This document shows positions 34,074 to 35,208 of a stretch of 64,000 nt of DNA, one piece after another. The stretch's first letter is position 1; every line of letters begins with the position of its first letter. A model generated the notes under the pieces. That model made no database searches, had not been told where the DNA came from, and saw only the letters and a program-made list of their open reading frames with translations. Origin of the DNA: Chloroflexota bacterium (lineage in GTDB: Bacteria; Chloroflexota; Anaerolineae; Anaerolineales; UBA11579); contig JABFGG010000013.1 in NCBI GenBank assembly GCA_013112575.1, forward strand, positions 1-64,000, given 5' to 3'. The translations under genes and the position numbers were made by a program.

Positions 34074-34112
34074 AAAAGAGCCGGTGAGATATATTCACTC
34101 ACCGGCTCTTTT
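34074..34112. terminator. Terminator after the DUF2892-type gene
   Basis: AAAAGAGCCGGTGAG (34074-34088) pairs with CTCACCGGCTCTTTT (34098-34112) over 15 bases. Read on the minus strand it ends the DUF2892-type transcript, with a T-rich 3' end. It also separates that unit from the ABC-2 operon. Confidence 0.88.
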
Positions 34113-34129
34113 GAATGATGTGATGGGGC

Positions 34130-34339
34130 TTATGCTTCTTCGCTATTGCGGGTGGAAAGCCCAAAAAGGGCGTAGATCGGGCAAAAGCCAATAAAGCTGG
34201 TGGCTGCGAAGATGACGGCGACCAGACCCAGGATGATGGCAGCCAGACCAGTGATCTGACCGGCAAAATAAAGCACGGCGATCAACGCTACGATAGCAAG
34301 ACGGATACCACGATCAAGTTGACCCATGTTGAGTTTCAT
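34130..34339 (-). CDS. DUF2892-type two-helix membrane protein
   Basis: ATG 34339 (GGAGG 8 bases upstream) gives 69 residues, MKLNMGQLDRGIRLAIVALI. The NMGQLDRGIRL opening, two helices with a GLAAIILGLVAVIF core and the FCPIYALFGLST end are the pattern of the YgaP-type transmembrane domain (DUF2892). Members often stand next to rhodanese or Crp/Fnr genes. The gene follows a 34-codon membrane peptide by 17 bases and a Crp/Fnr regulator, and was read with a longer false N-terminus only through an overlapping frame. Confidence 0.85.
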   Translation of the reverse strand: MKLNMGQLDRGIRLAIVALIAVLYFAGQITGLAAIILGLVAVIFAATSFIGFCPIYALFGLSTRNSEEA

Positions 34340-34356
34340 TTGTTCTACCTCCGGAA

Positions 34357-34461
34357 CTAGTTGATAAGTGTTTGGATCAACAGCGCCAGGCCGGAGATGG
34401 AACCTAAACAAACGATACACACCAGTACCAGTTTGACGAATTTTGTTCGGGTGTTTTCCAT
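34357..34461 (-). CDS. 34-residue single-span membrane peptide
   Basis: The minus strand from ATG 34461 to the TAG at 34357 encodes 34 residues: MENTRTKFVKLVLVCIVCLG followed by SISGLALLIQTLIN. AGAGG lies 7 bases upstream of the ATG. The peptide is a short charged N-terminus followed by one hydrophobic helix with two Cys. It lies 17 bases before the DUF2892-type gene. A Crp/Fnr-like palindrome sits upstream. It is short, so coding is inferred from the ribosome-binding site, the hydrophobic character and the spacing. Confidence 0.6.
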   Translation of the reverse strand: MENTRTKFVKLVLVCIVCLGSISGLALLIQTLIN

Positions 34462-34496
34462 CAGTCAACCTCTCGCTGTTCCCAATTTATGCATCT

Positions 34497-34538
34497 ATCT
34501 TAACGATTCGAGGCTGAACTGTCTGTGACTAAGTCACA
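34497..34538 (-). promoter_or_regulatory. Crp/Fnr-type site and promoter for the 34-residue peptide and DUF2892-type gene
   Basis: TGTGACTAAGTCACA at 34524-34538 is a perfect inverted repeat (TGTGACT-A-AGTCACA). A minus-strand -10 TAAGAT lies at 34497-34502, giving a start near 34490. The centre of the palindrome (34531) is then at about -41, the class II activator position used by Crp/Fnr proteins. The palindrome overlaps the regulator stop codon, so the regulator probably controls the downstream pair. Confidence 0.65.
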
Positions 34539-35208
34539 AAGTCTGGATTGTTTCTAATGCTTCTTTATTCAGTATTTCGATCTCCCCGCGGGATAGCCGG
34601 ATGACCTCCTGCTGTGCCAGGTCTTGCAGCAGCCGGGTGATGACTTCCCGTGAACTACCCAGCTCATCTGCAATGCTTTGGTGCGTGATCTGGATGGGTT
34701 CACTACCTTGCGAGCGACTCAACAACATGGCTGCCACACGCCGGTCCATGCGCTGGAAGGCGACCTGATCCACGATCTCCATCACGCTCACCAGCCGCTG
34801 GGAGAACAAAGTAAACACGAAATCGCGCCAGATATCGAAGCGGCTGATCCAATCATGGAAGGTGGTCGCCGGGATCATGACGGCTTCCGCTTCCTGTTCA
34901 ACGGAGGCGATGGCTGGGAAGGCCTGATGGTTGAGAATGGCATTGGCCGTCAGGATACAGGACTCGCCCCCTCCGAAACGGTAAAGCGTAATTTCCCTAC
35001 CTGATACACCGATCCTGTATACGCGCACCGCGCCGGATAACAATAAGGCAATGGCATCCACCTGATCGCCTTCCACGAAGATGTCGCGTCCGCTGGGAAT
35101 CTTGGCGAAATAGGCTGTCTCTTGAAATTCTCGCGTGAGTTGGGGGTCAGCGGTCTGCAAGACCGGCAAAACTTTTTGGATCTGTTCGAATTGTTCTTTG
35201 TCTAACAT
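34534..35208 (-). CDS. Crp/Fnr-family transcriptional regulator
   Basis: The product has 224 residues: a cyclic-nucleotide-binding-like beta barrel (~25-130, GRDIFVEGDQVDAIALLLSGAVRVY) and a winged helix (~145-220, ITHQSIADELGSSREVITRLLQDLAQQEVIRLSRGEIEI). The RSQGSE and SSREVITR recognition helix is Crp/Fnr-like. The barrel lacks a Cys cluster of the FNR type, so redox sensing by [4Fe-4S] is unlikely, but heme or ligand sensing is open. TACAAT on the minus strand (35217-35222) places the transcript start 2 bases before the ATG, so it is probably leaderless. Confidence 0.88.
   Translation of the reverse strand: MLDKEQFEQIQKVLPVLQTADPQLTREFQETAYFAKIPSGRDIFVEGDQVDAIALLLSGAVRVYRIGVSGREITLYRFGGGESCILTANAILNHQAFPAIASVEQEAEAVMIPATTFHDWISRFDIWRDFVFTLFSQRLVSVMEIVDQVAFQRMDRRVAAMLLSRSQGSEPIQITHQSIADELGSSREVITRLLQDLAQQEVIRLSRGEIEILNKEALETIQTL

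Follow-up and report, generated by a model that had tools for sequence, protein, structure and literature searches.

A Crp/Fnr-family regulator and its predicted class II operator before a CxxC peptide–DUF2892 operon in Chloroflexota

The window analyzed here, a whole stretch of 64,000 nucleotides from a Chloroflexota bacterium, contains on its minus strand a gene for a Crp/Fnr-family regulator, a 15-bp palindrome at the end of that gene and, behind it, two genes encoding a 34-residue CxxC membrane peptide and a DUF2892 membrane protein. Comparison with related sequences reveals an operator, a rigid promoter geometry, a conserved linkage and a real peptide gene. The regulator is likely to act as a dedicated class II activator whose single target is the peptide–DUF2892 operon, and it probably responds to a reactive sulfur or thiol signal.

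Binding, activation rather than repression, the transcript start, the signal and the protein functions are predicted from sequence. In the proposed mechanism, the regulator dimer would bind the 15-bp operator centred at -41 and, once bound, would recruit RNA polymerase in class II fashion to a weak sigma-70-type promoter just behind the regulator gene. This promoter would drive both the 34-residue CxxC membrane peptide and the YgaP-like (DUF2892) membrane protein. Thiol stress or reactive sulfur would likely be the trigger, with Cys84 perhaps as its sensor, and the small membrane proteins may deal with sulfane sulfur or thiols at the membrane.

Architecture of the locus

The regulator gene (34534..35208, minus strand) encodes 224 amino acids with both domains of the Crp/Fnr superfamily, a cNMP-binding-type domain (Pfam cNMP_binding, 1.1e-11) and a Crp-type winged helix (HTH_Crp_2, 1.2e-14). 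As the first-pass annotation had observed, its stop codon (34534-34536, minus strand) is overlapped by the palindrome TGTGACTAAGTCACA (34524..34538; TGTGA-N5-TCACA), which sequence and conservation mark as a putative operator. On the same strand follow a partial -35 element, CAGACA (34520..34525), with a conserved GACA and overlapping the operator edge; a -10 element, TAAGAT (34497..34502), separated from the 15-mer by 21 bp and from the -35 element by 17 bp; a transcript start near 34490, as predicted from this -10 box; and a Shine-Dalgarno-like GAGAGG (34469..34474), read from the sequence 7 nt before the peptide ATG. The peptide gene (34357..34461, minus strand) specifies a single-helix membrane protein of 34 amino acids with a CxxC motif (C15, C18). 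The DUF2892-type gene proposed to follow it is present at 34130..34342 on the minus strand (DUF2892 / YgaP-like_TM; Pfam PF11127, E 3.4e-19, 69.2 bits against a gathering score of 25.3) and is the single PF11127 gene found in the genome. A terminator-like hairpin (34075..34111, minus strand; -24.6 kcal/mol, z -7.7) would end the two-gene operon; it is missing from the consensus terminator scan, which has a loop limit of 8, the predicted loop being 9. The operon is surrounded by ABC transporter genes and lipoprotein-like genes, and inspection of the flanking genes by eye recognized no sulfur genes beside it.

The recognition helix of the regulator reads S-S-R-E-V-I-T-R, and R187, E188, R192 and C84 are invariant in all 46 aligned Chloroflexota sequences and in 12 of 12 proteobacterial ones. 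FNR proper carries an N-terminal cysteine cluster for [4Fe-4S]; this cluster is absent from the window regulator, whose only cysteine is C84, and in most Chloroflexota regulators only one cysteine is conserved. Against the NCBIfam CRP model the protein scores 43.3 bits, compared with a cut-off of 266. Its best solved relative, PDB 3dv8 (E 5e-29), is a Crp/Fnr regulator of unknown role in which a cysteine likewise aligns with C84. The proteobacterial regulators (L112-L122), L137 and L138 carry another cysteine six positions beyond C84, one that is missing from the window regulator and most other Chloroflexota ones (L005-L045 compared). The window regulator is up to 68% identical to regulators of other families, versus 53-55% to those of its own family.

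Operator and promoter geometry

The first-pass annotation had centred the palindrome 41 bases before the predicted start of the peptide gene. This distance holds for the transcript start predicted from the -10 box, but not for the peptide ATG (34461), which lies 70 bases from the palindrome centre (34531). The operator centre falls at -41 because the TA of the -10 box sits exactly 21 bp beyond the 15-mer. Reading -41 as a class II position is upheld by the rigid 21-bp distance between 15-mer and TAnnnT -10 box in relatives, and the class II site predicted from the -10 box of the window is to this extent supported.

At class II promoters, E. coli CRP combines an R-E-x-x-x-R helix with TGTGA/TCACA half-sites and a site at -41.5. 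The window shares the helix and the half-sites, and its downstream half-site extends to -34, just as it does when a class II site is centred at the canonical -41.5; the base pair missing from that arrangement belongs to the upstream side. The usual dyad spacing of Crp, FNR and NtcA is N6 (TGTGA-N6-TCACA for Crp/Fnr), whereas at every one of the 49 class loci, the window's among them, the half-sites are separated by 5 bp, making a 15-bp dyad one base pair shorter. Unlike E. coli CRP, moreover, the window regulator has a single local target and carries Cys84 in the region of the cAMP-pocket signature.

TGTGACTAAGTCACA occurs as a sole exact copy in the 5.13-Mb genome; the three further places within 2 mismatches all fall in ORFs and lack TA at the offset of the -10 box. 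If the window is searched by itself, its 2 matches at up to 3 mismatches correspond to the chance level (mean 2.04), and the significance of the site therefore rests on conservation. In the sigma-70 scan the window promoter stays below the threshold, which fits the expectation for an activator-dependent promoter.

Class II activation by the neighboring regulator appears most likely because of the operator position, the R-E-x-x-x-R helix, the weak promoter and the single target. Repression is geometrically possible, since the operator overlaps the -35 element, and the regulator could be a Crp-fold repressor, like YgaV or BigR, that would keep polymerase off the promoter until a thiol or sulfur signal releases it. 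Several relatives do have good promoters (xxGACA, 17 bp, TATACT), and sulfide-responsive regulators of comparable operons (BigR, YgaV) repress, according to the accessible text of PMC9774250 and PMC8148161. A constant -41 centre, however, is not required for repression, TT is not conserved at the first two -35 positions and the window promoter is weak, so that we judge a repressor unlikely, while giving it real weight.

Conservation across Chloroflexota

The regulator was compared over 49 loci, drawn from 38 of 396 class genomes (E 1e-55; the genome of the window included), three more from 24 family genomes and 8 named genome contigs; the other 358 class genomes gave no match at this threshold. 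L063, L064, L066, L070 and L073 came via the motif search, and their genomes are also on the regulator-match list. All 49 regulator-selected loci carry GTGACnnnGTCAC with at most 1 mismatch near the regulator stop, and in all 49 the TA of the -10 box lies at exactly offset 21, L136-L138 included. Averaged over 46 loci, the match to TATAAT reaches 4.57 at offset 21, and no other offset from 0 to 33 exceeds 2.87.

The promoter alignment has 46 rows, three of which repeat the promoter of another, leaving 43 unique sites. Their logo reads GTGAC-www-GTCAC-N-GACA, then TAnnnT, in which T and A are present in 43/43 sites and the last T in 41/43. At positions +8 to +11, G is found in 41 of these sites, A in 43, C in 41 and A in 38; this GACA stands where a -35 box would have its second half, with 17 bp to the -10 box, and TT is not conserved at the first two positions of that box.

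The palindrome could instead be an RNA element at the regulator gene's end, either a terminator or a translational stem, given that it shares bases with the stop codon in the window and in most relatives and can fold into a hairpin of -8.2 kcal/mol. Its z is only -1.3, no T-run follows it, and displaced palindromes move with the downstream promoter: in L009, L012, L014, L017 and L023 the site lies 54-148 nt after the regulator stop, its distance to the target gene kept. A terminator was rejected on the missing T-run and this travel with the promoter, and we regard an RNA element of either kind as very improbable. A protein-binding operator remains the preferred reading.

Among the 48 Crp loci other than the window, 47 (L039 with a cut at a contig end) lead directly to DUF2892, and one, L037, leads to another gene. 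A strict genome-wide pattern search in the class returned 41 matches, 28 regulator-linked and 13 unlinked, and a reversed-pattern control gave 9. A wider regulon in the class was rejected, as none is apparent when the unlinked matches are so close to the chance level. The exception, L037 (G203:C541), has the operator and -10 box before a 474-codon secreted-looking ORF instead of DUF2892.

The CxxC peptide

The 34-codon gene, proposed earlier as one that is normally left unannotated, proves to be real, with 13 homologous loci showing a coding-type substitution pattern. A search of 24 family genomes found two peptide homologues (50% and 61%), and a three-sequence profile gave 11 matches in 10 of 396 class genomes, that of the window included. 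The idea that the peptide is unique to the window was thus refuted by homologues in 12 other loci. DUF2892 lies directly downstream in 13/13 loci. Peptide differences at codon positions 1, 2 and 3 are 0.47, 0.28 and 0.67, respectively; the closest pair has dN ~0.10, dS ~1.15 and dN/dS ~0.09; and K10, C15 and C18 are invariant in the homologues. The window peptide has no match among Pfam or NCBIfam models.

The close placement before DUF2892 in every locus would also suit an ORF that works chiefly as a leader, its translation adjusting that of DUF2892, and not as a membrane protein gene. The amino-acid conservation, the low second-position change and the dN/dS of the closest pair argue against this, as do the invariant CxxC in a hydrophobic helix and the fact that DUF2892 mostly has its own ribosome site in the peptide loci; we therefore hold a leader to be rather improbable and treat the ORF as a membrane peptide gene.

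A peptide search in 350 phylum genomes added five weaker matches (E 4e-5 to 0.008), unlinked to DUF2892. One of them, L107 (G050:C1:3803357-3803431), looks like a full-length diverged CxxC peptide and is located after a response-regulator-like sequence and before a gene that by eye is Hsp20-like.

A peptide operon usually under another promoter

Search for the same triad in related genomes, suggested by the first-pass annotation, went against a conserved Crp–peptide–DUF2892 arrangement: the peptide occurs at just one of the 49 Crp loci, that of the window, and the available flanks of the 12 other peptide loci contain no match to the window regulator. Mutual exclusion of regulator and peptide was also rejected, as ~41 and 12 genomes among ~419 predict ~1 overlap and 1 was seen. 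Judging from these genomes, the conserved unit is regulator–operator–DUF2892, and peptide plus DUF2892 is a separate conserved unit, usually under another promoter.

In 11 of the 12 non-window peptide loci, GTAAC is found 51-92 nt before the peptide, and 10 also have CGTC 16-17 nt further, a combination that we take to be an ECF-type promoter; L085 lacks such a promoter and L088 has only half of one. In five of the 12, the sequence just upstream encodes an ECF sigma factor and a zinc-finger (zf-HC2) anti-sigma, a count in which L078 and L085 offer little upstream sequence. These sigma/anti-sigma operons precede the peptide–DUF2892 pair in L077 (1434-2472), L083, L084, L087 and L089, where the promoter reads TGTAACC...CGTC, and the ensemble looks like a thiol-stress sigma system of Anaerolineae. 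The peptide locus L090 is near thioredoxin-like and FAD/disulfide reductase genes. The window has neither the GTAAC nor the CGTC element, and its best matches to that ECF sigma factor are 33-36% identical.

Because the peptide operon elsewhere has ECF-type promoters and the other Crp loci lack the peptide, the window is a hybrid. In the DUF2892 tree, the window protein groups with the peptide-type L086 and L087 (support 99/90), in an alignment of 72 columns where the window and L087 form long branches. The simplest history would be that a Crp regulator–promoter cassette captured a peptide–DUF2892 operon, the direction being our reading of the sequences.

Spread to Proteobacteria

A tblastn search against plasmids returned 132 records, from the upper part of which 13 were taken by hand, 12 of them proteobacterial. 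The proteobacterial regulators have 34-43% identity to the window regulator, and all 12 loci contain the same 15-bp site with at most 1 mismatch. The 5-bp spacing gave the fewest mismatches of four spacings tried in 11/12, and TA is at offset 21 in 8/12. In L117, where the regulator–DUF2892 gap is ~1.3 kb, an exact N5 site lies farther on and the operator remains with the target promoter. In one of the 12 loci, that of Azospirillum lipoferum, an insertion of two genes separates regulator and DUF2892, and the site is ~100 nt before DUF2892 and not with the regulator. Random 450-nt segments of these plasmid loci contained the site at up to 1 mismatch in 11/431 cases, mostly exact and presumably due to second sites.

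Of the 11 proteobacterial loci that carry annotation, 9 list DUF2892; in L116 and L118 the regulator leads straight to an MBL hydrolase or YeeE/YedE, without an annotated DUF2892. Proteobacterial neighbors include YeeE/YedE (thiosulfate transporter), an MBL-fold hydrolase and a TIGR01244 sulfur transferase. In the Paracoccus and Chelativorans plasmids, L115 (3395) and L122 (2392) also carry the 15-bp operator a second time, in the gap between divergently oriented genes for a peroxiredoxin and an Rrf2-family protein. A Paenibacillus outgroup (30%) has no DUF2892 annotation and no such site behind the regulator gene; an exact operator match is found inside the 3' end of that gene.

The predicted sulfur or thiol signal

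In ten of the 46 Chloroflexota Crp loci (L013 3954-4487 and nine others), the gene immediately after DUF2892 encodes a thioredoxin with a DUF2892-like tail fused to it. In Azospira suillum, the transcript of a DUF2892 gene ranks among the most abundant and rises ~10-fold during H2S oxidation, and deletion of the gene had only a minor effect, as stated in the accessible portion of PMC5358917. We infer a sulfur or thiol signal because of the proteobacterial neighbors, the thioredoxin–DUF2892 fusion, the invariant Cys84 and the A. suillum expression. The operon would thus probably serve a sulfur or thiol stress response, with Cys84 as a candidate sensor.

The signal of NnrR, another Crp/Fnr regulator, is NO. 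By analogy, NO or O2 is a possible alternative signal, as NnrR controls an operon with a DUF2892 gene and trxC in Bradyrhizobium; its sites are FNR-like (TTG-N8-CAA), unlike the window operator, and its gene is not adjacent (PMC6710368, accessible text).

With sulfur or thiols preferred, we tentatively suggest, at somewhat less than even confidence, that these regulators form an undescribed sulfur/thiol-responsive Crp/Fnr branch, spanning Chloroflexota and Proteobacteria and using an N5 operator, whose portable regulator–promoter cassette captured the operon of a new family of CxxC membrane microproteins, otherwise under ECF sigma factors with zinc-finger anti-sigmas, so that one output would have two interchangeable redox inputs.

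Relation to known systems and implications

YgaV is an ArsR-type regulator. In the E. coli YgaV–YgaP system, a regulator gene likewise stands beside a gene for a YgaP-like membrane domain and is sulfide-linked; YgaV, however, is a repressor and YgaP has a rhodanese domain, whereas the window has a Crp/Fnr regulator and DUF2892 alone (PMC9774250, in the sections available). Neither an ArsR regulator nor a rhodanese domain of the YgaVP type is among the Pfam matches. The operons of the proteobacterial relatives are of the same kind as the BigR/FisR-type persulfide operons (yeeE/yedE/pdo), with a Crp/Fnr regulator replacing the ArsR or sigma-54 regulator described in the available part of PMC7315123. 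Within the accessible text of the open-licence PMC literature, we found no paper linking a Crp/Fnr regulator to persulfide/YeeE operons or, in Chloroflexota, to the control of DUF2892.

One review, in the portion accessible, names CstR, SqrR/BigR, FisR and CsoR as sulfide/persulfide regulators (PMC8148161), and our analysis adds a Crp-fold candidate to that set. The resulting prediction is compact, with one regulator, one 15-bp site and one promoter conserved across phyla, and it includes a possible one-base-pair change in Crp-type dyad spacing. An overlooked 34-codon ORF leads to a small-protein family with an invariant CxxC beside DUF2892, itself a membrane family without an agreed role, and the swap between ECF and Crp control indicates the kind of stress to look for.
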